The notes under the pieces: model-generated | The model's database searches: none | What the model was told of the DNA's origin: nothing | What the model saw: only the letters and a program-made list of their open reading frames with translations | Virus record (IMG/VR): IMGVR_UViG_3300017786_000008 | Coordinates: 16,093 to 80,092 of that record | Source: a virus | Length of the DNA: 64,000 nucleotides | Direction: 5' to 3' (one strand) | Program-made: the position numbers and the translations under genes | Shown: positions 24,213-49,237 of the stretch, piece after piece | Numbering within the stretch: position 1 is the stretch's first letter | Layout of the letters: the number at the start of each line of letters is the position of its first letter

Positions 24213-27200
24213 TTATCCTTTACAAGGTTCTTTTTCACTTATGCATTTACCAACGCTTTCACACCAATAATAACCTTTACTACATAAACCTTCTTTTTCG
24301 ACAGGTGAAATTTCACTAATTTCGTCGTCGTACTTATCTTTTACATCAGTTTTTTCATCTTCTGTATCAGTTGCAGGTTTAACTGGTCCATCACCACCTG
24401 TTGGTGGTGGGGGTGGTGGTGAACATCTTGCCACACATTCTTCAAATGAAGTATACAACCCATCAGGGTCTTCAAAACACAGTCCTTCTTTACAACCATA
24501 CCTTACAATATTTGTTGGCCTATCACCAAGAACAAAAACTCCAGTATCTAAAGTACCTCCCCCTCTTGGGTTACCTCCTCTTGGGTCGCCTCCTCTTGGG
24601 TCGCCTCCTCTTGGGTCGCCTCCTTCTGTTACAACACCTGGTTTTCCACTAGGGCCTGATGGATACCCACCTTCAGAAGATACGTCTGAACCACCAAATA
24701 GTGTAGTGGTAACAGGTGTGTTAAATGTAGTTGGTCTTAAATTGTTTATTACTTGTCCCACATAAATATTATCGTTTGCACAGTCCCCAACTAAATGTGC
24801 TGTACATTTATTATTTAAAGAAAAACAATATTCTTGTGCGTTTTTTAAACAATCATCACACTCTTTAGTTTCTAAATCGTGAAATATATTAGTTATTCCA
24901 TATATTGGGTCTAACTTCAATGCTTTGGAGAGTTCTTGTCCACATTGGCAGTAGTACTTACATTTAGTACTATTAGATAAGACTTCTGGTTCAGGATTGT
25001 AATGTGAAAAAGCAGAAACTATATTAACGTCTTTACCTTTGATGTTTAATTTTCTATTTAGATTTACTAATTTCCAGTCAGCTGGTGTAGTTTTATGTAT
25101 AATATCATAAGTTGTACCTACTTTTGTTCCAGAACATGGTTTATAAAAACCACAGTCTGGTGTGACTACTATATAATGTAATAATGTATTACCGTAATAA
25201 TTTTTAAAGTTATTAACTATAATATAAGACTGGCTTAATTGTGGGAAATTAAAATCACATTTTGCACCGTACTCATAACTGTTATAGGTTGGTAGGTAGA
25301 ATGAGAATAACCCGTTTTCTTTCATATGGGTCATTTGTGAATTAGATTTATCACTTAACATGTAGTCTTTTATTGTATTATTTTCTATCATTCTTTGCCA
25401 GTTATTTGTAGGTTTTTCTGTACTTATATCCCAAACCAATTTACCGTCAGGAGCTGTACTATCTACAAAATTTAAACCACCAAAGGTATTATTATCGACA
25501 AAAGGTGTTCGTATGTTACCACATTCACTATCTGACAAATAAAGTGTACCATCAAGTTCTATTGTTTGTGTAGTGTCACCAACTTTAAACTCAAATGGTA
25601 GTGATTTTTTGGTTGAATCAAAGAATAATTTTTTACTACTAACACCATTAGATGCTTTTATACCACGATAATAAGGAGATTCTAAAGTGTTCCCACTAGT
25701 ATCTAATCTATGACCTAAATTTATATCTATAGCTGTTGCACCACCGGATAAGTAATAGAACCCACCTTTAGAAGTTGAGTTCCAATCTGTTTCATATTTT
25801 AATTGTATGGTTTGTCCACTAATTAAGTTTATTAATCCCGTGTCCAATGTAACTGGTATTTGTTTGTGAAATATGGTAGATGATGTCATAGAACTTAATA
25901 TACAACTATTCATACCACTAGTAGTTAAATCATTTTTATCAACATCTAATGTTAAATAATCATTTGCAAACCCATCTGTTTTTCTACTTCTTACAACTTT
26001 AAACTCAGATAATGTTGTTCCGGTACCACCTGTCGATGAACCTTGTATTATAGAAGCTGTAAAATTAAAGTTTAATATTCCAGTATTATCTGGTGCATCA
26101 CCACAAATATTTTTTTCTCTCCCAGATGTACAATCTCTATATTTTTCACCAGCATTAAATTTAAAGTCTGTGTCTGTTGCTACAACTTCTTTTTCACCAT
26201 CACCCGCTTGGATTATGGAGGTATTTATAAGTCTTTTAATCTCATAATCGTTACCTGGGTAACTACCTGTAAATCCGGAAGGATATGCTTTTTCTAGGTA
26301 CTCACACCACTGACTATCAGTATATTTTATATTTAAATACCCCTTATATGTAAACCTATATATACCACTAGTTAATGCGGAATAAGTAAGGTAGTTGTCC
26401 ACATCCGACTCATTAAAAATTAATGTCCCATTATTTCTACCATAAGCTTCACTAAATGTATATGGTCTGTATTCTAGAGTAGTATCACCGATTAGTTTCA
26501 TTTTTGTTTGTCTCTCTATATTACTAATAGGCACTATCGTATTAGCTGAAAAAGAAGCTCCACTTAAATGTAGGTCATAGGTTTTATTAGTTATATTAGG
26601 GTCACCGGTCGTAGCTGTAAATCCTGTGTATAATTCTGTTTCATCTTTTTTATCGTATGTTGTAAAACAAAAATCTGTTACAGTGTTAGCACTAATAGGT
26701 GCTATAGTATACAGAGCTGTGAGAAGGTCATGTGCTTTAGGACTATGTTTTGCTCCAACCATTGCACCTTTTTCTGGGTGCACATGGTAGAAACCTACAT
26801 ATTCTTCTCCGTTTGGTAGTAAGTATTCATTACCTGATGTATATAATCCTTCTTCCGAACCTATTTTTGTGGGGCCTACAGTACATTCTTTACTAGGACA
26901 AATAGTTATTGTGTTAATATCACCATCGACAGTATATGTAAACCTTACATCTGTAAATGTATTTAAAGAACTTCTGTTAACCCATTGTGATATTCTAGAA
27001 TAAGTTCTGGGTATATTTTGTATTTGTCCTTGCGAGTTGATTGTAGGATAATTTTCTATACTTCCGATTTGTTGTGTTTTTAATTTTTCTTCAAAAGCTT
27101 TTAATTGTGTCTTGGTAGAAAATTTTAAAGAGTAACATTTGTCAGCTTCACTAAAAAGTTCATTATTTTGTAATTCACTTGCCCAATTTAATGGGTACAC

Positions 27201-28135: not shown

Positions 28136-31100
28136 TTAATATCCTCCACCACCTCCGCCTGAAGAACCTCCAGCTCCAGCACTTGATGAATATCCACCTC
28201 CACCTGAAGAACCAGCACTAGAAGTTGTATTTATACCCGAGGCACCACCACGTGAGGGTGGTGTAGTTGTAGTTGCTTGTTGGGTTGGACTTGTGAGTCC
28301 TCCACCACTATTTAAATTGTAGGTTTTTAACCAACCTAGTCCTTGATTACCAAATTCTTTTAAACCATACACACATAAAAGATTATTTGTACTACCTTGT
28401 TTTGTAAAGATTGGTTCGGATTCAAATTTTCTTTTGTTTGTGTTAAATTCATTAGCTAATATTTTACCTTCTTTGACCACTAACTCACTTCCCGATATTA
28501 ATGACTTTTGATTTATATCATATTCAGAAGCATAAGTGGATATTGGATTAGTTGTATTACCGGTTAGTATGTTATTATAATATATAGTATTTGGTTGAGG
28601 GGCTTCGGGTGGTGCGTTGAAACTCATCATCCTTGCTTGGAATTGTGGTGCTGGAAAAGAAGTATACCCTGTAGGATTTACTGTAAAGGTAGTTGTATAC
28701 CCAGAATCATAGGATATTCCTGACATAGAAAAACATCTATAGACAAATTTATCTCTGTGAAAATCAGAATTTTCTATTTTAACACCACTAGTCCATAGTG
28801 TTGTTGCTGGCATCATTTGTTCTACTATCCTTATCCAATAGTCACCCATGGATTGAGCGTAATCAACCATTTTAGTGTAGGTGTACTTATTATTATCACC
28901 ACAACTTTTATTTAGATAATCTAGGTACATTTGTTGTAGTACTGGATACCCACCAGTTTTACCGTCATTTATAGTCATTCTATTTTTAACATCAATAAAA
29001 TATTTCCAGAAATTATCTCTAAATAACTTAAAATCTAATTTTTTAGCATTAATTTGTGGGTTAGTTGAGTCCCAAGTTCCACCACTTGATGGGTATGGTG
29101 GTGGTAATGTACCCCCACTAAACATGCAATTATATAAACTAGATTGTCTCCAAACATCGTACGTCAATCCTTGTCCTATGTTTAAATGTAAATCAACATT
29201 TTTAACATTTAAAATTAGTTTTTCGTTACTTGTTTGGTAGTATGCACTTCTCCAATATCTATCGTTAAAACTATATCTTCTAGTTTCATCTTCTGTCTTA
29301 CATCTATTTTTTTGAAACATTTCGACATATCGAATTCTACTTATAAGTATTTTTCTCCAGTTTGGGTTTGTACCCGCTGCGGTTAATTCTTCAAACTTAG
29401 CAATTAATTTTTCTTTTCTTCTTTGTAATTGTCCACATTTTTCCCTATAAACATTGTTTTTAAAGTTTTGGTGTGTGTTATTTATTTGGAAAATGCCCAT
29501 ATCAGGGTCTAAATCTGGTCTATATATATCTTCCCCTATTTCTACCCAAGATTTCTTGTCGTCTATAATTCTTTCTAGGGAATACCCAAAATACATATGT
29601 GGGAATCTTCTAAATCTATCTAAATATGGTGCTTTAGGGTTGTTAGAGTGTGTACCAGTAGACCAAAATCCACCCCAAGTAAAATTATTAAATTTAGTTA
29701 CTACACTAGGATTACACCCACTTAATGTTGAGGCTTCTTGATTTATAATTAAATCTGATTTATGTTCCTCTGTTCTTTCGAACCAACCAGCTCCTCTTTG
29801 GAAAAAGAAATTGTTGTTTGTTGGTGGTACTTTTGGGTACCCAGAACCGTCTATTGGGTAGTCCCCAAAATTAAAGTTATTAGTGGTTGTACCGGTAACA
29901 TATGTAAAAGATGAAAATGGTATACTATATTTTATTGTTTTAGTTACATATGTCCCACCCGAAACAACAGCCCAAGTATCATAAAATTTATTTAAATTTA
30001 TTTTTGCGTCCGCTAAAACTATATACTCATTAAACTCAACTAACGCTTCAGGTGCACCCATTAAACCTAATAGAAATTCTATAGATTTCCTAGTACCTTT
30101 TGATTTAAATAGGTATCCTGTGTTAAGTAGTATCCTCCTATATAATTCTATATCTAATTCTGCTGGTGTCATACTTACACTACTACCAGAATATTCTGGT
30201 GCTGTTACCCCTAATACGTTGTCTAGGAATGTGTTGTTATTTAGTGTGTTAGGTGTTGACCACCCTAAGGTTCTTGCAAAGTTTTTAATTAATTCGTTAG
30301 GTATGTTATTTTTACTGTCATATGTTACATTGGTCATATAAGCTATACCATCTACAAATGTTTTTATATCATCAAAACTTCTACCATATATTTGTAGTGT
30401 TTTTTCTATTTTTTGGTCTGTGGTATCAAATTCTTTTAGTACTGGTGCCGTTAAAAATCTAGAAACTAAGTTAGTTTTTTGTACATCTAATTCATTTCCT
30501 AAGTCAGATAACTGAGTCAGATAATTAGTGTACCCACTACTAGTTATGTCTATATTAATAGCGTCTTGTTTAGGCCAAGTTATCATAGTATTACTATAAA
30601 ATGTTCCACCCGCACTAGATTCTTTTATTAATTTAAAAGTTGCTGTATATTCAGGTACTACATCTCTGTTCATTAAAAACCTTTCAACATAATCGAAGTT
30701 TTTGAATACTTCGTCACTTTCTAAACTATTAGGTTTAATAAAGAATGTATCCGTAGTACTACTATTATTTATAAATGGATTACCCTCAACAGTAAAAGTT
30801 AGAAAACCTGTAGTTACAGTTTGTGGTTTAAAATCTATTATTTTATATTCTAAAGCATTTATTTCCCCACCCAGGGTTAAAACATAATTTTTATATTCTG
30901 TAGTTAAGTTTCTTAATTTAGATACTGTCCCATCTGCAACTTTAATTAATGTGTCAGCTCCATAACCAAACATTTCTAAATTATTTAAAATTTGTTCCTT
31001 ACTAATAGGTGTATTAAGTAACTCACCATTTGAGGTAAATTCTATAACAAATGGATTTGATATGTGGTCTACACTTACATTAAAAGTAGTTTGGTCTGTG

Positions 31101-31540
31101 CCACTATTGTAGTTTATATTATAAGCTGTGGTATTACCACTTTGGTTAAGTGAATTTACCCCATCAATGAATAGAGCTGCGGGAAAAAAATTAATGATGC
31201 TTTGGGTGGCAACACTTAATCTCTTTTTTAATGAACCATATAAAACTAATTCGGCTATATTATTTGTATCGGTATTAATGTATACTTGGTAATTATTTTT
31301 TACAAATGCCTGTGCTGTTTTTAAGTCGTTAAAATCTAGAGACTCTAGGGTAATTGGATTAGAAAATCCTTCTAGTTTTTGAGGTGTGGATACACTTCGA
31401 GTGTATTCTTGACCAATGGAAAAATTACCCATGGTCATTTGTGAAGACCCGTCTGTTATTTGATTACCTACTAGATTATCACTAAAGGTATCTCCTCCGT
31501 GTCCTGGTGCTGGTGGATATCTAAATCTATTACTAGCCAT
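28136..31540 (-). CDS. Large virion structural protein with Gly-rich C-terminus
   Basis: This 1134-aa protein is mixed alpha/beta. It includes a helical segment near residues 460-500 (ELDIELYRRILLNTGYLFKSKG) that looks like a conserved core of tail or baseplate proteins, and a KGTRKSIEFLLGLMG stretch next to it. The last about 30 residues are almost only Gly, Ser and Tyr (SSGGGGYSSSAG... GGGGGGY), a flexible tail also seen in shorter form at the end of the 1186-aa protein. No enzyme motif. Position in the virion block suggests a baseplate or tail-associated role. Confidence 0.6.
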   Translation of the reverse strand: MASNRFRYPPAPGHGGDTFSDNLVGNQITDGSSQMTMGNFSIGQEYTRSVSTPQKLEGFSNPITLESLDFNDLKTAQAFVKNNYQVYINTDTNNIAELVLYGSLKKRLSVATQSIINFFPAALFIDGVNSLNQSGNTTAYNINYNSGTDQTTFNVSVDHISNPFVIEFTSNGELLNTPISKEQILNNLEMFGYGADTLIKVADGTVSKLRNLTTEYKNYVLTLGGEINALEYKIIDFKPQTVTTGFLTFTVEGNPFINNSSTTDTFFIKPNSLESDEVFKNFDYVERFLMNRDVVPEYTATFKLIKESSAGGTFYSNTMITWPKQDAINIDITSSGYTNYLTQLSDLGNELDVQKTNLVSRFLTAPVLKEFDTTDQKIEKTLQIYGRSFDDIKTFVDGIAYMTNVTYDSKNNIPNELIKNFARTLGWSTPNTLNNNTFLDNVLGVTAPEYSGSSVSMTPAELDIELYRRILLNTGYLFKSKGTRKSIEFLLGLMGAPEALVEFNEYIVLADAKINLNKFYDTWAVVSGGTYVTKTIKYSIPFSSFTYVTGTTTNNFNFGDYPIDGSGYPKVPPTNNNFFFQRGAGWFERTEEHKSDLIINQEASTLSGCNPSVVTKFNNFTWGGFWSTGTHSNNPKAPYLDRFRRFPHMYFGYSLERIIDDKKSWVEIGEDIYRPDLDPDMGIFQINNTHQNFKNNVYREKCGQLQRRKEKLIAKFEELTAAGTNPNWRKILISRIRYVEMFQKNRCKTEDETRRYSFNDRYWRSAYYQTSNEKLILNVKNVDLHLNIGQGLTYDVWRQSSLYNCMFSGGTLPPPYPSSGGTWDSTNPQINAKKLDFKLFRDNFWKYFIDVKNRMTINDGKTGGYPVLQQMYLDYLNKSCGDNNKYTYTKMVDYAQSMGDYWIRIVEQMMPATTLWTSGVKIENSDFHRDKFVYRCFSMSGISYDSGYTTTFTVNPTGYTSFPAPQFQARMMSFNAPPEAPQPNTIYYNNILTGNTTNPISTYASEYDINQKSLISGSELVVKEGKILANEFNTNKRKFESEPIFTKQGSTNNLLCVYGLKEFGNQGLGWLKTYNLNSGGGLTSPTQQATTTTPPSRGGASGINTTSSAGSSGGGGYSSSAGAGGSSGGGGGGY

Positions 31541-31546
31541 AACTCG

Positions 31547-32455
31547 TTAAACGTTTATTGTACTAAATGTCTTACTAAAATCTATATTGTTACCTCTATT
31601 TGCTCTAATTTCGTATAATTGGTCATTAAATTGGTCTCTAACCTCATATAAATCGTATTGTTGATAGATATTTTGGTTAAAGTCATAAAGAGTGTAGATT
31701 CCGTCGTCTATTGATTTAGATTGGTTACCGTATAATGCAATAGCTAAAGTGTCGAAATCATGGTCTACCATTTCTACATCTAAAACAATCGGGTTAAAAA
31801 ATGTATTTGTAATTATAACGTTTTGTCCCGGTTGCCCTATAAATGGAATCGCGTTAGGATTATTTGATGGGGCACTTGTTGGTGTTAGTGTACAAAATAT
31901 TAAATTTGTTTCAGTGTTTGTGTAGACGTATCTTGGTGCTACCTGATTTGGGTTTGTTAGGTTTGCTGCTACTGGTTCACAATAAAAATTAGATGTTACT
32001 ATTCTAAAAAAGTTATGTATTTTTTCTCCATTTGCTTGTAAGTATTCTATTCTATAACCCACTAAAGAATGGGGTTTAAATCTACTTCTATATGCTGCTG
32101 GTACATTATTTAAATCAAAGACAAGCCCTTTTACGTTTGGTAGAGAAGCTAAGATACCACAATCTATTATAGTAGTTCTTATCTCTACTGGTCTAATATA
32201 AATTGTATAAATTCCTTTAGATGCGAATACGTTGGACGGTAATTGTAAATCGTATAGTCCACCTAGAATTTCAACACCGTTTGCCCCACCAGTATTATTT
32301 TGGTGGTAATGTGGTGTTAATAAGGTATTTGCTGGTAATTGTGAAACTACAAAATTAGAGGTTGCGTCCCTACTTGGTGTGTAGTGTACAATAATTTGTA
32401 CGTCGTCTGGAAGTACGTCAGCTGGTCTTTTTATTCCGTATGCTCCTAATGCCAT
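31547..32455 (-). CDS. Virion structural protein, unassigned
   Basis: This 302-aa protein was not recognised. It is Asn/Pro/Thr-rich and beta-rich, with several hydrophobic strands (GIYTIYIRPVEIRT; VIITNTFFNPIVLDVEMV) and a C-terminal helical region (YQQYDLYEVRDQFNDQLYEI). No membrane segment or signal peptide. Located between the 1134-aa protein gene and a small 73-aa gene with gaps of 6 and 2 bases, it is probably a baseplate or tail component. Confidence 0.6.
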   Translation of the reverse strand: MALGAYGIKRPADVLPDDVQIIVHYTPSRDATSNFVVSQLPANTLLTPHYHQNNTGGANGVEILGGLYDLQLPSNVFASKGIYTIYIRPVEIRTTIIDCGILASLPNVKGLVFDLNNVPAAYRSRFKPHSLVGYRIEYLQANGEKIHNFFRIVTSNFYCEPVAANLTNPNQVAPRYVYTNTETNLIFCTLTPTSAPSNNPNAIPFIGQPGQNVIITNTFFNPIVLDVEMVDHDFDTLAIALYGNQSKSIDDGIYTLYDFNQNIYQQYDLYEVRDQFNDQLYEIRANRGNNIDFSKTFSTINV

Positions 32456-33297: not shown

Positions 33298-36200
33298 TTA
33301 AAGAGGTACTATAGATGATGAGGATGAACTATTTGCACCACCACAAGGATTATTTAGACTATTAACACCACAAGGTAACCACGCACTATTATAGGTACCA
33401 TTATTAACTATAAAATCACCAGTGTTAGGGTCACCACTACCTGGGTCCATATTAACAATTTGACAAGGTGGTGGCATTACTGAACTATATTGTGCAGACC
33501 TAGCTGTTGATGAATTTGGTCCAGCAGGGGGTTCTAAACATTTGTTATCAACAATATCCCAGCCAAATTCACAACCACAACACCAACAACAATTTTCGTT
33601 GACATCTGTAGGGTCTACATTATATATACATTCACCTACTTGAAATGGTACAGAAGTATATGCTGTATTAATTGTTTGGTGTGGGAAACTTACTGGTGTT
33701 GGTAAATCGTTATATAGTGTCGTATTACAGACATCACATTCTACAATGGTTCCAGTACCACATGGGTCATTATTAACATCAACGTTACACGGTAACCACA
33801 TTCCACCATTAATATTTATACCTATAATAGAACTAGGGTCTCCTTGACCATTTTTACAAACTGGAGGTGCGACAACTTGAAATAGCATAGTTTGTAGACT
33901 TTGAGAAGTGTATGGGTTTGTACTATTTGGTAGGGGTCCTGCTGGTACACAACAATAACAACAATTATCATCATCAGAAACTACACAATCATTTATTTGA
34001 TATGTGATAGCGGGACTATAATTTCCTAAATAGTTTGATGGTCCAGTTAAAACATTACCTAAGGTAATATCACAATCTTCACAACCTAATGATACTGGGT
34101 CTACACAAACAGTTTGACAAGCACCCAAGGATTGGTATTGACCTAGTCCGGTTCCTGGGTCTAAACAATTACATGTTCCCGGACAATTAACACAATCCCA
34201 ACTATCTGGTATAATTGTATCACAACAATTTGTTGGGTCTAGTTCACATTGTGACAGTGAACTATATACACCACTAGGGTCTTGGTAACATTCACATGGT
34301 GGTCTACACATTTTCCTAGAAATAACCTTAAGTGCTTCAGTAGGTGCTGAAGGACCTGGATTACAAGGTATATTTTGGTCATTATTTATGGTACTAATAA
34401 GTAATGCAAGGTCAAGAAGATATCCATCAGGACTATACTGAGGACTACCCGCCTGACTCGGACTGTAAATTATATTCTGACTGGCATTGGTTATACATGA
34501 GCCCATCATTACACTATACCAATAAGTATTCTCACTAAAGTAGATAAGAGCAGAACTAGTACCACCAAGTATAGATGGGATGGTAGTATTCACTATCAGT
34601 CTTTTCAAACGATAGGTACCATCCGATACTTGTACAAAACAGTCAGGAGATTGTTGTAATCCTGGTTGTGTTGTATATGGAAAACATTGTACATCACTAA
34701 CATAATTTGAAATACCAAAGTAGTAAGCATTAACACTAGTACCAGCCAACGTAGAATTAGGACCATCAAAATCATAACCCAACCCTCTAGCTTTAGCAAA
34801 AAACACTTGTAAAGCTGTTAGTTCATCTGGGAAATATCCTGCATTTATTATTGTATTGGCGTATGCTTGAGACTGCCCCATCGATACTAGATATTGAGCA
34901 TCTGCAGCGTCTATAGTAAAATGATTTAACGCTGTAGCCCCTAGAGTATTCATCTGTATTAAATAACCATCCCAACCTGACCATCCTGATGTAGTTGCTG
35001 GATAAGGGCTACATTTCCACATTGTTGGAGTTGGTTGGTAACAACATGTACTGGTGTCACCTGTACAATCTGAGATAGTATTATACCCCACAATAGCATT
35101 TGCGTCCCACACACAAGGACAAACTCCAGTACCTACGTTTGGATTTCCTGTGTCACAAACATAGTATCCTGTTTGTGGTGGTTGACAACAAGGAGTTGCA
35201 GTTGCTGCTATATTACATAATGCTAAATTTGGATATACACAGTTAAGTCCGCTAGTACATTGTTGACAAGAACATGGACCTATTTGTGAACATTGACAAC
35301 TAGATGTTCCAGCAAAAAGCCCAATAGCGGTTTCCCCATAACTAGTCATTTCATCTCTTGCTTCTTGTACATTCATACCCGTATTAAATGTTTGTGGTAA
35401 ACTTAGATTTGCATTAACCAGATTTAATTGAGCTATAGCATCATTCCAATCAAGGAAAGTTACAGACTGGGGACATCCATTTGCTGTGGTATATATAACA
35501 TTTGAAGAATGACAATGAGGGGTTGTTCTAAATATTCCACCAGCACCACCATACTGATTAGGGTCAGGATTAGGACAGGAAGCATTGCTAGCGTTTGGAC
35601 TTACGGCTTTTTTACTAGCAAATGGTGTATTTGGTGGGTAAGTTTGTACTATCCAATCAAAAAATATTTGAGGAAAGTGCCAGGAACTGGTTCCTGCATT
35701 AATACCCATCGCTCCGAACCCAGTTGTTCCTACTGGGTTTATTGGGTATTCCAGAGTTGCGTTAGAACATACAGTATATACTGGTTGCCCTGGAAGACAT
35801 TCATACATCGTAGGAGTTGCAGCTGTGCTAGGACAACTGGTGTCACATGGTACCCACATTGGGTACCCTCCATTTGGTTGTCCACCAGGAAATGTACTAG
35901 GTGTATTATTTGCTAATTCATTCGCGTATGCGTCATACCATTGGTGTGGATTCATAAAACTATGTAAAACGTGGTCATATTGGTCATACACCATAACAAA
36001 ACAACAACTAGTTAATGTTCCTCCACTTCCACCAGCGTCAATTACAACATCACCTATATTATAACTTATCGCCGGAGTCCATGCTGGGGTTGCAAGTACA
36101 CTACCTACTATTGGCGTTGGTATTACAACGTTACTTAACGACCAAGTACCAGTGGCGTCAATTACTGGGAATGTAACACTCCCTGCTGTTTTACAATCTT

Positions 36201-39200
36201 CACACGGACAACATGTAGTATTGTTAGAACCTGTACCACCTAATGGGTAAGAATTGGCTGTACAGTCTGCTAAAGTATTATAAGCTGTACAAGCACCATA
36301 TGGTGGTACTGCTGAATAAAATGGTATAGTTATAAGACTGCAGTGACATGGGTCTGGTTGTGCTATAGGACCTAAATCTGGTTTACATTCTCCACATATG
36401 AAATTACACTCGTCTTGACACTGGGTTGGTGTTGTGAATGGTCCGTGTACACAACTTGCTGGCATCGTACCAACAAAACTTATACACCCTAATGTTTCAT
36501 CACAACAATATTCTGTTGTTTGTGGACAACAAGGATATTGAGTTTGTAAACTTATACAATCTCCTATAGATAACGCACAAGAAAAGTTATACGGGTTTAA
36601 GTCACAAGTACAACTAACATTTGTGTCACAACAAAATCTACAAGCTGCTTGACAGTCCCCTAAGGAAGCGAATCCAGTAGCACCAGCTGGATAAGGTGTA
36701 CCAGTACCCTGTTGTCCAAGTACTTGATTTTGGGTCCATCCTGGGAAAGGTGGTGTAGCAATCCAACTTATTATAGTAGTTTCTGGAAAACAATTTGTAG
36801 TAGTTGCTGATTGTCCAGCATTGGTATCACAAAAATAAACTGAAGGTGCTGTACAGTTACAGTTATTTGTATTTGACCAACAGTCAAAAGCTGAAGTATG
36901 TTCTGGAAATAAATTTAATGGATTATTACCTACAAATTGACATTGTCCTCCGGTTGACGAAGGGTCACAAGCCCACTTACAATTTTGTTGACAGTCGGAT
37001 AAAGTAGTATAAGCTGCTGTGGGATACAGTGGGTCTCCAGGAAAAACTTCTATACACCCACAACCATCAGGTGCTACACAAGGGTTTAATGAACTACACC
37101 ATTCAGTATCGTCACAATGAAATTTACTAGTTGCACCAGAACAACAATTTAAATTACCTGGTGGTGGTGCTAATATACCTTGTTGACACTGCCATACACT
37201 TAAAAACCCGTACCAACTTGATGAGTTAGTCGTTACTCCATTTATAACATCCTGTTGCATTACACAATCTGTAAAATCATCCGAAGGGTCTGATGGTGTA
37301 CCATTATCATCACAAAAACAACCTGCCTTACAGTGGTCCATACATGTACTAGCAGTATAACAGTTGTTAGCTGCTTCTGAACCTAGAACAAAATTACATG
37401 GTATAACGTTAAGAACACAACCATCAATAAAGTCACAACTATAGGTATCCCCATCAACTTGTTGACATGGGTCACAACCACCAACCGTATTCCCACTTGG
37501 GGTGCTACCACAACTAATCCAAGCATTTGGTGTTCCGTTTGGTGCGTCTGGTCCTCCAGGTATAAAATAATTACAATCATAAAATCCTGCTGGTGGACCC
37601 ACGTAAGGATTACTACCCATTGGTACGTCACAATAATAGCAACAAACATCAGGTGCTCCTACTTGCCAAGCTACATAATCATATAGTTCATAATCATTAG
37701 CTGTACTATCCCACTCTTCTCGGTCTACACCAACACCACCAGTAAATGGGTCACACGCACACTCACAAGTTTCTCCGTCAGGAATACAACCATTTGGATT
37801 GGCTGTCACACATTCTGTAAATGTACAATATACTGGCCCTAAAGGACTACAAGGTATATTAGCACTTCCTACTGCAACACTAGTGTAAACACAAGGCCAA
37901 TATGGCCATGATGGGTCATATAATCCACTCATTGGATTAAATATCGAAGAGTTTTCATCACACTCTATATCACAACAACCTGTTGCTATACAACAAGCTG
38001 AATAAGAATCATAAGGGCCTCCAGGTGACCAACCCCAACCACTAGGTAATGCAACTGGGTTTGGATAATTTGCACAATTACCATAACTACTACCATTAGT
38101 TAAACTAACTAAACAATCTATACCACCGTCTGTAGGACAATTATCATAACAATCTTGTGCAGTAGCGTAGGACCCATTTGGATATAGTAAAGCTAAGGTT
38201 GGGTCTGTAGGATTTGGATTTGCTCCAAACCCACTTAATGGTACAAGTGCTGGGTCAATAGCCCAGTCCGCCTCCCAAGTTGGTAATGGTGTGGGACAAG
38301 GTGCTAGATTTTGACATGGTGTAGCTGAACCACTTAAACAAACCCAACAGTCAGTTAATGGTGGGTTACAATAGGTACAACAATCTGCTGAGGTATTGTA
38401 TTGCCCACAACCATTAGTATAACAAGGTACACAAGTAGTACTACCAGGAAAACCGGTACCACCACTACATGGTTGGTACCAGGGGTCATAACAGTCCCAA
38501 CCACAAGGACCTGGTAAACCACCTAGATTATTTGGGTCACTTGCACAATCACCAGAAGTGGGATAATTACCACCTGTTATTTGTACACACCCTGTGTCAC
38601 AAAAATATTCCCAAGCTGTAAAATCACAACATGCGGATATTCCTTGTCCTGGGACACCAGTTTCACAATCATTTAAAGTGTAAAATGGGTCTAGGAATAG
38701 TTGGTTATTAGTGGCGGTTACTTGTGCTGTAGCAAGTATATAATTTGTCATTATATCATAATAGTCTGAATCTGGTAAAGCAGCACACGAAACTTCAGAA
38801 CAACATGGTGTATTTGTTGGTGTTGTACATGACCAAGCTATAGGGTTACACCAGTCTTCACAATCTGTCATTGATGAAAAAGTAACTGATAGTGGGTAAC
38901 CAGGATTATTATATTGTGGATGTGTATAATCTATTTGGATACATCCAGGTGTGTCACAATTATATTGGTTTGGGCAATGCCATCTATCATCTACAGGGCA
39001 ATTACCATTATTATATGCGGTTAGACAACCTCCTGGTCCCGCGTAGAAAGTAAAACTATTAGGAGTACTCCCTGAAATTAATTCACAAACGTCAACACCA
39101 ACATTTGTTAAGTCTTGTGGACACACCCAACTTGCACATCCCACGTAATCCCAACTTGTTACGTTAGTAGTGGCTGTTGGTACGATACCAGCTGGTACAT

Positions 39201-41202
39201 TATTTATTGCTCTATAACAATTTCCGTCTGGACCATATATAAACTCACCAGCGTTAAAAACTTGTGTGTTATTCCACTGTCCCGCTATCCCAATAGTACC
39301 CATAGGTGAATACGCATTAAAAATATTATAAGGGTCTTCACAAGGTAAAGCACTTCCTGTAGGACAACTCACACAATCAGGTGTACAACCTTCCCACACA
39401 TGTACATCAGGTCCAGTAGGATTAATATAGACACCTTGATATAGTTGGTGTGGTAGTATTCCTGCAAATGGACTGTTACCTCCAGTATTACTTGTTTGTG
39501 TTATATCTGTTACAGCAATATAACAACAGCAAGACTGGGGTGTTACATCATATACGATATCTCCTTTAACATAATCTACAAAAGGTGACCAATTAGGTGG
39601 GTTAGATGGTGGATTAGGTGTTATAGTTTCTACTGTGAGTGTAACCCTATCAATATATTCATCTTTAGTTAAACAAAATTCACAAGTTTCTTCGGGACAT
39701 TCAAAACAATCTTCACCACCAAACGCTAAAGAATTTAAACCACAACTAGTAGCTACAAAAATTGTTATTCCATTTGGAAAGTCATAAAAATCTATAGGAG
39801 TTTGTCCATTTGCGGAAGATATTGTATATCCAGTGTATATTGCATTTGCTTCAAATATCTCACCCATCATACCTGCTGTTATAGTGTTAGTTAATGGGTC
39901 TATAACGTCACCACCAACAGGTACTGTGACAAATTTTTCAAACCCATTAGGTAAAAATCCTGGAGCTGTTGTAGATGGTACATTACTATATGTAGAAAAT
40001 ATACCTACTGAACTTTCTGTGATACCCGTAAGTTCAAAACAACCTATAGAGGTACCACTATATTGATTTATGTTAGTACCAGAATCTAAAGGGTAATAGT
40101 TTGGTGTACCAATAGTACCGTAAGTACCGTGATACGCTGTTGAGGTAAACATTGGTGGTGGTGTTACTGATGGTGTTGGGTTAGGACCACTTAAATTTAC
40201 TTGATATGGGTTACCTCCTGGTGTTGTTGGTGATAGTGCTACCCCTGCTCCTACCGCAGCTCCACCCATTCCAGCTCCTGTTGGTGGTGCTGATGAAAAT
40301 GGTTGGGCAAGTATCTGGGTGTAGGTTAGGTTCGGTACCGTTATTATTTGACTAACAGACGTTGGTCCCCATGGACCTTCATGTGTTATCTTAATACTAT
40401 ATTGTGATGGATTTACATATTCATATTCACTTGTTAATGATGGGTATTGTAAATCTTCACAACAAGGATAACCGTTAGCATTAACTGGTATAGAACAATC
40501 ACATTCACCCCAATCAATTCTATATGGGGATTGTTGGAATTCTTTATACGAACCAAAGTTGGTTGTATTATATACTTGTATTTTCATACCATTCCCTGTA
40601 GTGTTAGCTGTAAAAGTAAAATTAGAAAATACTTGTTGTTGGTCTATTCTTCCATCCCAAATACTATAGTGCCCTATATCATTGAAGTCTTGTGTTAATG
40701 TTAGGGGTAACTTATACAAAATGTCGTCTAGTGGGTCCAAGCAACTGCATATTTCCACACTTTCACCCCAAAATGCATTAACACCTTGTGAGTTTAACGG
40801 TTGATTTATGTTTGTATTTGTAACATCATATATTGTAATTAAATCATTATAACTACCAGTGTAGAAGGTTCCTCCAGAAGTAAGTACTAAACCTTTAAAT
40901 TTAACATAACTATACCCGTCTGGATTATAACAATTATTTGGGTTTGGACTTAATGCCGCGTCCCATAAAATAACACATGGGATTGTAGGTGAACAATCTT
41001 TTAGTTCATCCGGAAAACTAGACATAACACCACTATCTAAAGCACTCATTATTTGAGAACCTGTTGAGTTATACATCGTGTCTCCCGAACAATTTGTACT
41101 AAGGTTTATAGGGTAAAAATTTGTACCTCCAGTACAGGGTATTGTTCCAGTACTCCCAGTGTCCGGGGTATTTCTTCGTATTGTAAACTTTTGTATATCC
41201 AT
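33298..41202 (-). CDS. Giant Cys-rich modular protein with CBM-like and knottin-like repeats
   Basis: This is a 2634-aa protein, the largest in the window. Two kinds of module alternate. (a) About 60-85-residue units start with a Y..GD.V or similar segment, as in carbohydrate-binding modules of the CBM5/12 type (FVDYVKGDIVYD; AISYNIGDVVID; AITYQINDCVVSD), then CC-aromatic, and end with W(L/V/I)(P/S)C. (b) Compact Cys-rich units have the pattern W/F-x-C...C...G-x-Y-x-S/T...DC...C (for example LGQYQSLGACQTVC; AYTTLSDCQQNC). The Cys-rich module also occurs in the 1304-aa protein. No signal peptide or membrane segment is seen. A surface-binding adhesin of the virion is the likely role; it is inference. 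Confidence 0.65.
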   Translation of the reverse strand: MDIQKFTIRRNTPDTGSTGTIPCTGGTNFYPINLSTNCSGDTMYNSTGSQIMSALDSGVMSSFPDELKDCSPTIPCVILWDAALSPNPNNCYNPDGYSYVKFKGLVLTSGGTFYTGSYNDLITIYDVTNTNINQPLNSQGVNAFWGESVEICSCLDPLDDILYKLPLTLTQDFNDIGHYSIWDGRIDQQQVFSNFTFTANTTGNGMKIQVYNTTNFGSYKEFQQSPYRIDWGECDCSIPVNANGYPCCEDLQYPSLTSEYEYVNPSQYSIKITHEGPWGPTSVSQIITVPNLTYTQILAQPFSSAPPTGAGMGGAAVGAGVALSPTTPGGNPYQVNLSGPNPTPSVTPPPMFTSTAYHGTYGTIGTPNYYPLDSGTNINQYSGTSIGCFELTGITESSVGIFSTYSNVPSTTAPGFLPNGFEKFVTVPVGGDVIDPLTNTITAGMMGEIFEANAIYTGYTISSANGQTPIDFYDFPNGITIFVATSCGLNSLAFGGEDCFECPEETCEFCLTKDEYIDRVTLTVETITPNPPSNPPNWSPFVDYVKGDIVYDVTPQSCCCYIAVTDITQTSNTGGNSPFAGILPHQLYQGVYINPTGPDVHVWEGCTPDCVSCPTGSALPCEDPYNIFNAYSPMGTIGIAGQWNNTQVFNAGEFIYGPDGNCYRAINNVPAGIVPTATTNVTSWDYVGCASWVCPQDLTNVGVDVCELISGSTPNSFTFYAGPGGCLTAYNNGNCPVDDRWHCPNQYNCDTPGCIQIDYTHPQYNNPGYPLSVTFSSMTDCEDWCNPIAWSCTTPTNTPCCSEVSCAALPDSDYYDIMTNYILATAQVTATNNQLFLDPFYTLNDCETGVPGQGISACCDFTAWEYFCDTGCVQITGGNYPTSGDCASDPNNLGGLPGPCGWDCYDPWYQPCSGGTGFPGSTTCVPCYTNGCGQYNTSADCCTYCNPPLTDCWVCLSGSATPCQNLAPCPTPLPTWEADWAIDPALVPLSGFGANPNPTDPTLALLYPNGSYATAQDCYDNCPTDGGIDCLVSLTNGSSYGNCANYPNPVALPSGWGWSPGGPYDSYSACCIATGCCDIECDENSSIFNPMSGLYDPSWPYWPCVYTSVAVGSANIPCSPLGPVYCTFTECVTANPNGCIPDGETCECACDPFTGGVGVDREEWDSTANDYELYDYVAWQVGAPDVCCYYCDVPMGSNPYVGPPAGFYDCNYFIPGGPDAPNGTPNAWISCGSTPSGNTVGGCDPCQQVDGDTYSCDFIDGCVLNVIPCNFVLGSEAANNCYTASTCMDHCKAGCFCDDNGTPSDPSDDFTDCVMQQDVINGVTTNSSSWYGFLSVWQCQQGILAPPPGNLNCCSGATSKFHCDDTEWCSSLNPCVAPDGCGCIEVFPGDPLYPTAAYTTLSDCQQNCKWACDPSSTGGQCQFVGNNPLNLFPEHTSAFDCWSNTNNCNCTAPSVYFCDTNAGQSATTTNCFPETTIISWIATPPFPGWTQNQVLGQQGTGTPYPAGATGFASLGDCQAACRFCCDTNVSCTCDLNPYNFSCALSIGDCISLQTQYPCCPQTTEYCCDETLGCISFVGTMPASCVHGPFTTPTQCQDECNFICGECKPDLGPIAQPDPCHCSLITIPFYSAVPPYGACTAYNTLADCTANSYPLGGTGSNNTTCCPCEDCKTAGSVTFPVIDATGTWSLSNVVIPTPIVGSVLATPAWTPAISYNIGDVVIDAGGSGGTLTSCCFVMVYDQYDHVLHSFMNPHQWYDAYANELANNTPSTFPGGQPNGGYPMWVPCDTSCPSTAATPTMYECLPGQPVYTVCSNATLEYPINPVGTTGFGAMGINAGTSSWHFPQIFFDWIVQTYPPNTPFASKKAVSPNASNASCPNPDPNQYGGAGGIFRTTPHCHSSNVIYTTANGCPQSVTFLDWNDAIAQLNLVNANLSLPQTFNTGMNVQEARDEMTSYGETAIGLFAGTSSCQCSQIGPCSCQQCTSGLNCVYPNLALCNIAATATPCCQPPQTGYYVCDTGNPNVGTGVCPCVWDANAIVGYNTISDCTGDTSTCCYQPTPTMWKCSPYPATTSGWSGWDGYLIQMNTLGATALNHFTIDAADAQYLVSMGQSQAYANTIINAGYFPDELTALQVFFAKARGLGYDFDGPNSTLAGTSVNAYYFGISNYVSDVQCFPYTTQPGLQQSPDCFVQVSDGTYRLKRLIVNTTIPSILGGTSSALIYFSENTYWYSVMMGSCITNASQNIIYSPSQAGSPQYSPDGYLLDLALLISTINNDQNIPCNPGPSAPTEALKVISRKMCRPPCECYQDPSGVYSSLSQCELDPTNCCDTIIPDSWDCVNCPGTCNCLDPGTGLGQYQSLGACQTVCVDPVSLGCEDCDITLGNVLTGPSNYLGNYSPAITYQINDCVVSDDDNCCYCCVPAGPLPNSTNPYTSQSLQTMLFQVVAPPVCKNGQGDPSSIIGININGGMWLPCNVDVNNDPCGTGTIVECDVCNTTLYNDLPTPVSFPHQTINTAYTSVPFQVGECIYNVDPTDVNENCCWCCGCEFGWDIVDNKCLEPPAGPNSSTARSAQYSSVMPPPCQIVNMDPGSGDPNTGDFIVNNGTYNSAWLPCGVNSLNNPCGGANSSSSSSIVPL
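33580..39620 (-). repeat. Repeated CBM-like and Cys-rich modules within the giant protein
   Basis: Copies of the GD.V...CC(Y/F/W)...W.(P/S)C unit lie at about 39400-39620, 37560-37720, 35830-36095, 33770-34025 and 33350-33680. A variant without the CC pair lies at about 39170-39290. Compact Cys-rich units fill much of the space between them. The copies are diverged in sequence, so they appear old rather than recently duplicated. Boundaries are approximate. Confidence 0.55.
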
Positions 41203-41203
41203 A

Positions 41204-42067
41204 CTATGTAGTTACGTATTCATAAAATTTTATTGGTCCTAAGACCGTTTCACCTGCTGGTGCTAATGTTATTCCAGTAGCTCCAGCTACTGAATTATAC
41301 GGGTGTACTGTATAATTATATTTTGGGTTTGTATTACCAGTTTCTATATTTAAAATTATCTGGTAATAGAAAAAATCTTCAAAACTATATTGTCCTTGTA
41401 TCGGTGATGGTAACTGATTTAACATTCTGATGACTGTGCCAGTTTTACCATTAAAAAATTTACAGGTCATGTAAAATGTATTACCAGTAAATAAATCTCT
41501 ATCTTTTAACCATTGTAAATAATAATTTTCATTAGCACCTTCAGGAGCTGATGCAGCAGAGAAAGCTGGTGTATATACATCATATTGTGGTAAGTTGATA
41601 CCTTCACTTCTTTGATTCCAATATTCTTCTGGGTCTTCTGCTGGGTCTATAACTACACTTTTTTTTCTACAGTTATTGGTAGGCATTATTGTTGAGAATA
41701 GTAGTTTTTGTTCTTCTCTGACTGGTGTATCAAAAAAATCAAATTTAAAAAAACTTTTAGTGAAGGCTTGTGCGTTTTTTGCTAATTCGGAATTACTATA
41801 ATCTAATATATTAAAATCACTGACATAGGTAGAATTTGCACTATCCCAAAATTCAAATTCGTAATATATTTCAAATTTAGGTGGGTAATTAGGTGCGTAT
41901 CTAGTAGTTTCATAATCTTGTATATAGTTTATATTATTTTGTAACTCTATCTCATCATACATTTCTAAAAGTTGTTCTCTACCTACTTCATCAAAAATTT
42001 GACCTAAAGGCACAACAACTTTTTTATTTTTTAATGACGCTTTTATTTGTATTCTATTCGCAGACAT
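41204..42067 (-). CDS. Virion structural protein, unassigned
   Basis: This 287-aa protein was not recognised. It is mixed alpha/beta with Tyr- and Asn-rich stretches (NINYIQDYETTRYAPNYPP) and an FDFFDTPVREEQKLLF segment. The open frame extends to a TTG at 42073, but the ATG at 42067 (MSANRIQIKASL) is preferred and overlaps the upstream gene by 14 bases. It ends one base before the 2634-aa gene starts. A baseplate or tail-fibre connector role is possible by position. Confidence 0.55.
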   Translation of the reverse strand: MSANRIQIKASLKNKKVVVPLGQIFDEVGREQLLEMYDEIELQNNINYIQDYETTRYAPNYPPKFEIYYEFEFWDSANSTYVSDFNILDYSNSELAKNAQAFTKSFFKFDFFDTPVREEQKLLFSTIMPTNNCRKKSVVIDPAEDPEEYWNQRSEGINLPQYDVYTPAFSAASAPEGANENYYLQWLKDRDLFTGNTFYMTCKFFNGKTGTVIRMLNQLPSPIQGQYSFEDFFYYQIILNIETGNTNPKYNYTVHPYNSVAGATGITLAPAGETVLGPIKFYEYVTT

Positions 42068-43871
42068 CGACAAATCCTGAAACTACATTTATGCTACTAG
42101 AGCTATACCCAAACATTATAGGTTCTATTTTAAATTCTATATTTAAATATGGATAATGTGCATCATTTAAATATGGGTAAGTGACCCCATTATCCCCATC
42201 TTCAAAAAAATCTATAGGTAATATTGGTCTCCACCTAAAAGTCCCCTCTGATAAAGAATAGGTAGCGTATGGTGGTGTTGTAAATAGACTATCTTCATAA
42301 CTTATAGTTGTTGATAGTTTACGTATTGGTATTCTGTGATGTGGTTGATAGTTGTATATAGATTTTACATGTACTTGTGAACTAGATGTATTTGGGTACC
42401 CAGCAAATTCATACATAGCATCTGTATTAAATTTTAAAGAGTGTTTGATTTCAGAAACTACCCTTTCCTTTAATTCAAAAGGGTTGTACTCAACAAAGGC
42501 ACCTCTATATGTTGTACCACTTAAAGGTAACGGGTCTAAACCATTAGTTGTGTTTTGAAATAAGTTTGTTGGGTTGGTATCATTATTTACAAATGGGTCT
42601 ACAAATCCGTTATGTCTAAAATTCCAATCCCATCCGTACCCTGCTGGGGAATTGGCTGGGGCTTCATAATGCCACATAAGATTTCTATTTGTCTGGAATA
42701 TTGTTAGGTATAAGTCAGTTAATGGTCTGTTTAGATTATCTAAAAATTCTTCTACATCCACATCCATGTTTATATTCCATAAAAAAGACTTAAAATCTTC
42801 TAGTATTACCGTTTTATCACCATAATTATCTGGTGTTTTTTTAGACTTAAAAACCCTACCTTTTTTATTGTAAATACCATTTTCAAAACCTGTCCTATCC
42901 AATGTATAGTCTGAAGAGTTAGTTATTAATGTGTGGATGTGACTACAATATCTAGAACGTGTTTCATTAATATTGTCTATGTTTATTATACGTTTTATCA
43001 CACAAAAAGAGTTTGTTGGTATGGCTGTTATGTCTATCCCTTTAGTGTATATATTTAAAACGTGAGTTTCTGAATTAGCAAATTCATTACCCAAAAAATC
43101 TACGTTAAATATGTTTTTATTGGTGGTTACGGACACATTATTTATATCTGTAGTAATTGGCACTGTTGAGACTAGTGTGGCCCCACCAAAGTTACTGATT
43201 GATGCACTACTCTGTAATTCTACAAATTCTCCGGATGATATACCGTGGGGTGATGGTGTTGTTATTCTTATTGTTTCTTTACCGTTTGTAGTTATTACTT
43301 GTATACGAGCTGGAATCCCATCACCACTATTGAAATTTATTCCGTCTGTGCCATCGCCCACACTAAAACTCATAGTTTGACCACTGTCACAATCTGAAAT
43401 ATAGGATATATAAGCAACCCAATTATCTTGGTATGAGTCCAAACTACTATACTGTGAAGCGTTTACTGTACCATATCTATATGGTGGCATAAAAGTAAAT
43501 AAATCAGATGGTGGTAATCCGACACACGGTGGACCACTCCAATAAGTTTGCCCCACACTTGCTACCGTAATATCTGGACAACCTATATAATCCGGCGTAA
43601 AATACATATACTCCAAAACTCTATTGTCATTAGTTTCACCTGTTATCCTATTACTATATAAAACGTCTATTTTACCATATGGCCTATAAATTGTAGAATA
43701 ATCTCTTTCAAAATCAAACTGGTCTCTAAGATTAAGAACTAGATTTCTATCCCCCTCAATCATTGGGCGTTGTTCTGATGTTAATAAAGGTTGTAAACTA
43801 ATATCTTTATTTTGTGAACCAGCAAATCTAGATTCGCCCCTAACAATTCTTATGTTTTTTTTATTACTCAT
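42054..43871 (-). CDS. Virion structural protein, unassigned (605 aa)
   Basis: This protein is mixed alpha/beta with Ser/Asn/Tyr-rich segments. A basic N-terminus (MSNKKNIRIVRGESRF) is followed by a long body with motifs such as NLVLNLRDQFDFERDYSTIYRPYG. No enzyme site is visible. Its ATG overlaps the stop of the 1140-aa gene (TAATG), a strong coupling signal. Together with its neighbours it is likely a baseplate component encoded downstream of gp6 and gp25. Confidence 0.6.
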   Translation of the reverse strand: MSNKKNIRIVRGESRFAGSQNKDISLQPLLTSEQRPMIEGDRNLVLNLRDQFDFERDYSTIYRPYGKIDVLYSNRITGETNDNRVLEYMYFTPDYIGCPDITVASVGQTYWSGPPCVGLPPSDLFTFMPPYRYGTVNASQYSSLDSYQDNWVAYISYISDCDSGQTMSFSVGDGTDGINFNSGDGIPARIQVITTNGKETIRITTPSPHGISSGEFVELQSSASISNFGGATLVSTVPITTDINNVSVTTNKNIFNVDFLGNEFANSETHVLNIYTKGIDITAIPTNSFCVIKRIINIDNINETRSRYCSHIHTLITNSSDYTLDRTGFENGIYNKKGRVFKSKKTPDNYGDKTVILEDFKSFLWNINMDVDVEEFLDNLNRPLTDLYLTIFQTNRNLMWHYEAPANSPAGYGWDWNFRHNGFVDPFVNNDTNPTNLFQNTTNGLDPLPLSGTTYRGAFVEYNPFELKERVVSEIKHSLKFNTDAMYEFAGYPNTSSSQVHVKSIYNYQPHHRIPIRKLSTTISYEDSLFTTPPYATYSLSEGTFRWRPILPIDFFEDGDNGVTYPYLNDAHYPYLNIEFKIEPIMFGYSSSSINVVSGFVDVCE

Positions 43872-47395: not shown

Positions 47396-49237
47396 TTAGG
47401 AGAAAGTGGGTTTAGAGTTTCTCTTAGTTCTTACAGCTATGTCTTTTTGAGGAAACATAATTTGTAATATTTCATCAGGTTGTGCGAAAATGGTATCATC
47501 TATTAACCCTATTTGTTTTGTGGTAGCGTTAGAGTATGGTTGTGTACTAACTGATTGTGAATATGGGTCACCTACTTTATTATAAACTCTAATATCTACT
47601 ATGTTGACGACACCAGGTTCATTCATTATTTGTTTTCTTAATTCACCTAAAGATAAATCTTGCCCCATTTCTATTTTACTAACACCAAAATAATCACCAA
47701 CGATTGTAATTACATTAGTCACCACTTCACCCTGATTTACATCATTATTTAAAACCAAATCAATTTCAAAACTTAAATCAATTACTTTTGCTGACCCAAC
47801 CATTATATAATCATTTATCATTCTATGATTTGATAGGTATGTGGCTATATTATTTTTAAGTGTAGAACTAACGTTAGATGTTAGTGTACCTTCTGGTGTG
47901 TATGATAGTACATTTAACTTAATTTTATTTTCTATTTCCATCGCACTTGCTTTTGCTGGTGCACCGAATGATGAAGGCATTGTTCTTAGTTGAGAGACAT
48001 AGTCATTTATTGTTACAGCTCTTTGTTGAGCCGCAAAATTAAATGATATATAATTTCTTATTTCTTCTTGATTCATGGGGTCAGCACCTCCTATTGCTGA
48101 AGTTACATTATTAACAGCTAAACTATTAATAACACTTTGATTGATTTGTTGACTTGGTCCAGCCACAACAAAATCTATAGTACCCACATTAGTAACTGCT
48201 CCAGCACCTATATTTGATGCTTTACCACCACCAACCCTATACTGAATAAATAAGGTTGTATTACCTTTTACTGTATTACCTAAGGCTATGTTATTCATAA
48301 ACCTAGACATATCTAATTTAACTCCTTTAGAACTAAATTCGTCTAATAGGTCTTGAGACGTTTGGTTTCCACCACCAAATGTTAAAAAGAAAAAACCTTC
48401 AGGTGTATATTCCGTAACAAATCTCTGAGGTGCCGTAACATATTTACCAACTTTCATACTAACGTTATCCGGTGGTGTAGATGGGTCTTCTACGAATACC
48501 TCATTTTGAGCCAAAGCTTCTACCTCATACCACTTATTAGAGAGTGGTGATATAAACTCTGAAGTATTTGGTAGTGACTGATAGGATAATCCTGCTTTCT
48601 GTATAATGGATGTTACGGATATTATATTTTTTTCTGGTAAAAATAATTTAAAGAACGGTTTACTGTCACTATCTAAAATTTCTTTTTTAAATATCTTAGT
48701 GGTTCCATTAACTAAAACTTCTCTTTTAGTTATAGTATAGTTAACCAGAATACCATTAGAATCAAAATTTGGTATTTTTGTACGATTAGGTATTCCCTCT
48801 ACACTATAAGGTGAGGAAAAGTCACAGTCGTCCACTAATTCAAATATTTGTCCACCGCCATTAAATTGTGAACCAGCTCTTAATAACCCCAAATATTTAA
48901 AATCTTCTTTATCACCCAAAGGTGGTACAATTACTGATAAATCACCAACAGTTACTGATGGTCTATTACCTGGAACTTTTAAACCATAGGTTCTAGCTAA
49001 ATTATATAAAGAACTTCTTTCTTGTGCAAATTGTAATACTGTCTCTTGGAATGTCCTATCTATTTGAAAGTTTAGATTATCCGCTACTGCAGCGTTTAAA
49101 TCCAAAAAAACTGAATATATAGATGCGTCATTAGCATTTTGTATTAAGTCTGGGTAATAGGTATTAGTTAATCTTAATAGTTCATTTCTTATCCCTAGAA
49201 AATCTCTTTCAGTGTACGATATTTGTTTTTCTGCCAT
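47396..49237 (-). CDS. 6: Baseplate wedge protein gp6-like (baseplate J)
   Basis: This 613-aa protein matches T4 gp6 / baseplate-J-type proteins. It begins ISYTERDFLGIRNELLRLTN with the N-terminal helical bundle (LNFQIDRTFQETVLQFAQER SS split here by residue runs), contains an AARTYGLKVPG-like segment (LARTYGLKVPGNRPSVTV) and a C-terminal DIRVYNKVGDP region. gp6 forms the ring of the baseplate wedge in contractile tails. It is encoded directly downstream of gp25, the usual T4 order, with a 1-base gap. Confidence 0.85.
   Translation of the reverse strand: MAEKQISYTERDFLGIRNELLRLTNTYYPDLIQNANDASIYSVFLDLNAAVADNLNFQIDRTFQETVLQFAQERSSLYNLARTYGLKVPGNRPSVTVGDLSVIVPPLGDKEDFKYLGLLRAGSQFNGGGQIFELVDDCDFSSPYSVEGIPNRTKIPNFDSNGILVNYTITKREVLVNGTTKIFKKEILDSDSKPFFKLFLPEKNIISVTSIIQKAGLSYQSLPNTSEFISPLSNKWYEVEALAQNEVFVEDPSTPPDNVSMKVGKYVTAPQRFVTEYTPEGFFFLTFGGGNQTSQDLLDEFSSKGVKLDMSRFMNNIALGNTVKGNTTLFIQYRVGGGKASNIGAGAVTNVGTIDFVVAGPSQQINQSVINSLAVNNVTSAIGGADPMNQEEIRNYISFNFAAQQRAVTINDYVSQLRTMPSSFGAPAKASAMEIENKIKLNVLSYTPEGTLTSNVSSTLKNNIATYLSNHRMINDYIMVGSAKVIDLSFEIDLVLNNDVNQGEVVTNVITIVGDYFGVSKIEMGQDLSLGELRKQIMNEPGVVNIVDIRVYNKVGDPYSQSVSTQPYSNATTKQIGLIDDTIFAQPDEILQIMFPQKDIAVRTKRNSKPTFS

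Follow-up and report, generated by a model that had tools for sequence, protein, structure and literature searches.

A 2634-residue cysteine-rich modular protein encoded at a conserved baseplate position in an uncultured T4-like phage

Phage tail proteins that include a CBM5/12-type fold, and phage tails linked through cysteines, are already known. In tailspikes and fibres such as CBA120 TSP1 (domain D2), Milano TSP gp124 and the 7-7-1 fibres, one or two CBM5/12-type domains lie close to the end by which the trimeric spike binds the tail. The CBM5/12 fold of CBA120 TSP1 is in the head part and sugar binding has not been reported for it (PMC3966878), and the XD domains of T4 gp10 and CBA120 TSP4 bind other fibres (PMC8825819). 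Agrobacterium phage Milano has a disulfide-linked, Cys-rich contractile tail for which shear resistance has been proposed, and its structural proteins contain 2.1% Cys, compared with 0.9% in the T4 proteome (PMC10811340).

The 64,000 bp stretch analysed here, referred to as the window, belongs to a virus record of 80,092 bases (IMGVR_UViG_3300017786_000008). The genome is that of a T4-like contractile phage, as it encodes gp25 and gp6 baseplate wedge proteins, a UvsX-like recombinase, a DnaB-like helicase and an SSB. The gene of interest and a candidate for the tape measure are:

33298..41202 (-), giant Cys-rich protein gene, a single open frame, 2634 aa, 197 Cys
58380-63974, tape-measure candidate, 1864 aa, with an M23 peptidase domain at the C-terminus

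Cysteine makes up 7.5% of the giant protein versus 1.21% over all other window proteins, and His is rare (0.8%). An initial annotation, made from the sequence alone, had described a giant Cys-rich repeat protein, and this was confirmed, with strict motifs exceeding their frequency in shuffled sequences ([ST]..[DE]C...C, 5 versus 0.28; W.PC, 3 versus 0.35). That annotation also had CBM-like and short Cys units alternating along the protein. Both kinds of unit are repeated, but they do not strictly alternate; the order is an N-terminal anchor, two CBM-like units, Cys units, one CBM-like unit, Cys units, one CBM-like unit, variable Cys-poor stretches with Cys units, and two final CBM-like units. 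Searches of Pfam and PHROGs with the whole protein returned no match, nor did a tblastn search of INPHARED, and cultured phages yielded no Cys-rich version. Orthologs were found only in viral metagenome contigs, at 94%, 71-76%, 63% and, for most, 32-45% identity. Complete orthologs are 2440-2991 aa and contain 7.4-8.5% Cys. A further viral contig (L323) encodes a 2711-aa protein with 193 Cys (7.1%) in which profiles detected neither the anchor domain nor CBM-like units, which makes it a giant Cys-rich phage protein of another kind. Elsewhere in the window, a DegT/DnrJ sugar aminotransferase gene (8006-9175) may be involved in glycan modification, and a 269-aa protein (17347-18156) has 4.8% Cys and an EF-hand/dockerin-like pair of calcium motifs.

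The giant gene lies in a block of baseplate genes that includes:

49239..49700 (-), gp25-type baseplate wedge
47396..49237 (-), gp6-type baseplate wedge (Baseplate_J)
41204..42073 (-), 289-aa protein, whose gene immediately precedes that of the anchor protein in the relatives examined
31547..32455 (-), 302-aa protein, 55-69% identity in the relatives examined, where its gene lies downstream of the anchor gene
28136..31540 (-), gp7-like wedge candidate, 1134 aa, related to a Mel-JY01 protein encoded close downstream of gp6

In the window, the order is gp25, gp6, the 1140- and 605-aa proteins, the 289-aa protein, the anchor protein (here the giant), and the 302- and 1134-aa proteins. From gp6 onwards, each of the 14 tabulated loci keeps this order within the reach of its contig. 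As the 1134-aa protein is related to a Mel-JY01 protein encoded near gp6, it is probably gp7-like, which would place the anchor protein between two wedge-type genes. Placement of the giant in a virion block, as initially proposed, was thus borne out, with gp25 and gp6 upstream and the gp7-like gene downstream. An order-for-order match of the block to T4 gp9-gp12 could not be made. T4 gp10, with its XD domains, is likewise a multi-domain protein encoded in the baseplate region, but no sequence match between it and the giant was found.

A search with gp6 matched only six records, at about 26-29% identity, and there was no close cultured phage. The records are from Flavobacterium phage immuto, Microcystis phage Mel-JY01 and an uncultured phage. 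A Bacteroidota host, from the Flavobacterium phages among these relatives, is only a guess. Scanning 84,980 cellular genomes for relatives of the 1140-aa neighbour and of the CBM region detected none, so these scans gave no host link. The 1140-aa protein beside gp6 (43871-47293) contains 32 Cys and a strongly hydrophobic, transmembrane-like stretch (approximately residues 520-580), both odd in a baseplate protein; it has relatives on more than 80 viral contigs and no match in the phage collection. Within the virion block, directly after the giant gene, a 192-aa protein (32713-33291) includes a nucleotidyltransferase-like GS...DVD motif, seen by eye; it has no Pfam match and was not found in contig L002.

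The N-terminal part of the giant, which the initial annotation did not distinguish, has a separate existence in related phages:

39703..41202 (-), conserved putative baseplate anchor domain (PKD-type), residues 1-500, a stand-alone protein of approximately 350 aa in most relatives

This region includes a PKD-like stretch (WGDG in relatives, where PKD models give sub-threshold scores), and in a structure search it matched a 364-aa PKD phage protein (E 1.7e-13). The stand-alone homologs, found in many relatives, are approximately 350 aa and nearly Cys-free. A scan with the N-terminus of the giant returned 520 related stretches and a scan with the stand-alone form returned 464. Among the 160 loci made up of the best 80 from each scan, which may overlap, 131 encode a complete protein of 300-399 aa and seven encode versions of 986-1253 aa with 4.5-6.4% Cys; the remainder are giants, some of which end at a contig end. 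The middle-sized versions contain between one and three CBM-like units each, and several short Cys units are present in most of them. The stand-alone anchor had no match among cultured phages in INPHARED, and no homolog was present at E<0.05 in the regions examined of Flavobacterium phage immuto, Microcystis phage Mel-JY01 and LR756508.

The 605-aa neighbour, whose gene does not depend on the trait, was used to build a tree. The giants form a single clade (support 99), the middle-sized versions form one adjoining clade (92), and all of the true stand-alone forms fall across a branch with support 100. The one entry among the giants labelled as stand-alone (L146) is no exception, because its contig breaks off within a giant gene and leaves a cut frame of 275 aa. 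The simplest account would be one gain of an extension followed by growth, with the direction of change inferred as the tree is midpoint rooted.

Beyond the anchor, the first repeated unit is related to CBM family 5/12, and six copies were found:

39364..39597 (-), CBM5/12-like module 1, residues 536-613, by profile, leave-one-out and fold
39112..39282 (-), CBM5/12-like module 2, residues 641-697, the most weakly recovered when left out (E 0.037)
37507..37713 (-), CBM5/12-like module 3, residues 1164-1232, by profile and leave-one-out
35842..36087 (-), CBM5/12-like module 4, residues 1706-1787, by profile and leave-one-out
33784..34026 (-), CBM5/12-like module 5, residues 2393-2473, by profile and leave-one-out
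33367..33651 (-), CBM5/12-like module 6, residues 2518-2612, by profile and leave-one-out

Each of 11 orthologs contains 5-7 copies, and there were no matches at E<=0.01 in 60 shuffled sequences. As the profile had been seeded from the six visible units of the giant itself, it was retrained with each unit left out in turn. Five of the six were clearly recovered and unit 2 was weak (E 8e-6, 0.037, 0.0029, 1e-9, 3e-8 and 0.0055 for units 1-6, respectively). The consensus is GVWSNGTNYNIGDIVYDPDGDNCCYVCV...W.PC, in which W, Y, GD and V are the CBM5/12 core, and the Cys before the aromatic and the final Cys are invariant. The initial annotation had rested its CBM resemblance on a Y..GD.V motif. The resemblance held, but the strict motif itself occurs only twice in the giant.

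When a profile of 43 modules was used to query 177,635 PDB sequences, eight of the nine matches were CBM5/12 chains. The best were chitin oligosaccharide deacetylases (3wx7, E 1.7e-4), and the ChiA1 chitin-binding domain was also matched (1ed7, E 0.015). The sole match outside the family, to All3316 of the Anabaena contractile injection system baseplate, was weak (E 0.27). The ChiA1 domain, using the letters of 1ED7, scored 9.7 bits against the phage profile, a score equalled by only 2 of 2000 shuffles. AlphaFold models of the giant were moderate (pLDDT 66.9 for residues 495-792, and 55.7). In a Foldseek search, a check proposed at the outset, the best matches to the residues 495-792 model were tail proteins of Agrobacterium phages 7-7-1 and Milano, and tail fibres or spikes were among the matches. 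The model also matched the tandem CBMs of chitin deacetylases, 2D49 (rmsd 2.2) and 1ED7 (rmsd 2.9) and, among viral models, proteins named CBM5/12 or ChiA1-BD. The curated cut-off of Pfam PF02839 was not reached. This model gave no match in the giant at E<=1 and none in the genome from which the window comes, but it matched two of the family's 43 modules when these were searched singly (best E 1.1e-4). The CBM5/12 relation is therefore real but distant, below the Pfam curated cut-off and evident from the profile matches to PDB, the fold and the ChiA1 comparison with shuffles.

The modules share the W..nt.Y..GD.V...g..Y core and terminal Trp of family 5/12 (ChiA1 1ED7, ChiC 2D49, deacetylase 3WX7), and their fold matches (TM 0.61-0.62 on the target). 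Unlike the family, they have extra invariant Cys (C or CC before the aromatic and W..C at the end), a long variable insert and a phage baseplate context, and any glycan binding by them is putative. Like the tailspikes and fibres, the giant places this fold in a probable tail attachment protein, but it has 6-7 copies spread over 2,100 residues, and no beta-helix or enzyme body was recognised in it.

The second repeated unit is short and has the form [WY]xC...C...GxYxxLxxCxxxC:

38845..38979 (-), short Cys module, residues 742-786, by profile
38542..38631 (-), short Cys module, residues 858-887, by profile
38137..38340 (-), short Cys module, residues 955-1022, by profile
36976..37146 (-), short Cys module, residues 1353-1409, by profile
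36403..36531 (-), short Cys module, residues 1558-1600, by profile
35062..35190 (-), short Cys module, residues 2005-2047, by profile
34243..34299 (-), partial short Cys module, residues 2302-2320, by profile
34105..34233 (-), short Cys module, residues 2324-2366, by profile, in the canonical CxDPxxGxGxYxxxxxCQxxC form
24423..24500 (-), short Cys module towards the C-terminal end of the 1304-aa virion-block neighbour (24213-28127)

The profile found about eight units in the giant and made one false match in 60 shuffles. In the 1304-aa neighbour, the module is near the C-terminus in all six orthologs examined. Two Cys are invariant and a third nearly so in an alignment of 35 members. The profile had no match in PDB and nothing convincing in Pfam, and a consensus query had no match in INPHARED. 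However, 60 stretches of viral contigs match a strict DNA pattern for the canonical form, and up to six head-to-tail copies are present in proteins unrelated to the giant. Judged from these sequences, the module is common to environmental phage proteins and was not invented by the giant gene. In smaller phage proteins (L338, 11571-12140; L317; L322), tandem arrays of the form YNC.SGNC.DPGDGTGTYATLAACQ..C, at approximately 35 aa per unit, reach six strict copies. Repeats of the CTDPTATNYNPxATxDDGSC type occur in phage proteins that also bear short Cys or CBM-like modules (L336, L161 and L164).

Variation in the giant is concentrated at its C-terminal end:

33301..35802 (-), fast-evolving distal third, residues 1801-2634, with a peak at 2051-2300

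Relative to a near-identical contig (L001), the window has no amino-acid-changing differences in residues 1-1000. Across ten virion-block genes, 190 of approximately 260 such differences (73%) are in residues 1801-2634. The dN/dS ratio is 0.83 in this third, 1.2 in residues 2051-2300 and 0.15 in residues 1-1800. As dS is also raised in the distal third (0.127 versus 0.027), imported DNA contributes to the variation, and the dN/dS near 1 may come from relaxed constraint. In orthologs at 74-76% identity, the distal-third ratio is 0.42-0.45 versus 0.13. A conserved base with a fast-evolving distal end is the usual mark of a host-contact protein. The giant has both a conserved anchor end with a variable distal end and a conserved place in the baseplate operon, as a baseplate-attached receptor-binding protein of a myophage should.

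On balance, we favour the view that the giant is a baseplate-attached, disulfide-stapled modular host-contact arm, an adhesin, and consider this probable. The clustering of variation in the distal third makes the adhesin role first proposed likely. The 'repertoire for binding glycans' that accompanied it is unproven, because the CBM5/12 fold is a tailspike head domain with no sugar binding reported (PMC3966878), and for the inner modules the data are compatible with either a glycan or a protein partner.

The main rival is a protein-docking platform. The array would be an assembly scaffold whose CBM5/12-like domains dock other fibres or spikes, like XD2/XD3 of T4 gp10 and CBA120 TSP4, with the 1304-aa neighbour as partner. 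The position of the fold in CBA120 TSP1, in a head part with no known sugar binding (PMC3966878), the protein contacts mediated by XD domains (PMC8825819), the best Foldseek matches to 7-7-1 and Milano tail proteins, and the short Cys module in the 1304-aa protein all point in this direction. However, a scaffold should be conserved lengthwise, and no stretch of the block evolves faster than the distal third, which leaves this account unlikely. It is less likely again that the targets of the array are loose polymers (algal or crustacean polysaccharide, mucus or particle glycans) in place of a specific receptor, and that the phage is thereby kept near particle-living hosts. The relation of the modules to chitin-binding domains, the retention of the terminal Trp of the fold in 88% of them and the avidity suggested by many copies are consistent with such binding, but the distal variation suggests a co-evolving partner, and the exposed WW pair that is typical of many CBM5/12 domains is missing from the module alignment.

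The stapling part of the host-contact arm reading depends on the cysteines. Over residues 1-1800 in nine orthologs, 91% of Cys are kept, while the figures are 53% for Trp, 46% for Gly and Tyr, and 25-42% for most other residues. In 120 alignment columns, Cys is present in 10 of 10 giants. As this is the pattern expected of structural disulfides, we infer that disulfides are formed. Phage assembly occurs in a reducing cytoplasm, which counts against them, and the array is probably held together by disulfides formed after lysis. Binding of zinc or iron by Cys clusters would also account for a high Cys density with some C..C pairs. We judged this very unlikely, as C..C pairs are not significantly enriched (21 versus 14.7 in shuffles, p 0.06; local shuffle, p 0.18), His is scarce and there was no convincing match to a metal-binding family. 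A known parallel is the Milano tail (PMC10811340), but the Cys content of the giants is well above the 2.1% of Milano structural proteins. The bonds described in Milano are spread over many proteins, with many of them between chains. Finally, a host-directed or secreted product that merely happens to be encoded in the virion block is highly improbable, as the gene keeps its position among baseplate genes across the contigs examined and its N-terminus is a stand-alone gene at that same place.

In the host-contact arm that we favour, the first ~500 residues would be a conserved baseplate component that docks the giant onto the tail, and the other ~2,100 residues would be an addition to it, in which small beta domains with the chitin-binding CBM5/12 fold are strung together with short multi-Cys units. 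With disulfides that probably form after lysis to hold it, this chain could act as a stiff spacer that resists protease and shear and offers many low-affinity contact surfaces. The last ~830 residues would be its exposed tip, in contact with the host surface and under pressure to change. Neither the libraries searched nor open-licence PMC papers were found to describe this combination, its size and Cys density, the growth series or the unnamed short module. Tentatively, and with less confidence than we place in the arm itself, the giants may represent a new class of attachment device, in which a baseplate protein of ~350 residues has been extended about eightfold in one lineage by accreting two exchangeable modules, the short Cys unit being an unnamed fold, and in which a disulfide-stapled arm matures only outside the reducing host cytoplasm.

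A huge unannotated gene of uncultured phages is now linked to a defined baseplate position, and the series of approximately 350, about 1000 and 2400-3000 aa makes the growth of a phage arm visible. As the short Cys module recurs in environmental phages and has no match in PDB, a single structure would help to annotate many proteins. If disulfides do staple the arm, these phages would need oxidation after lysis in order to attach in open water.
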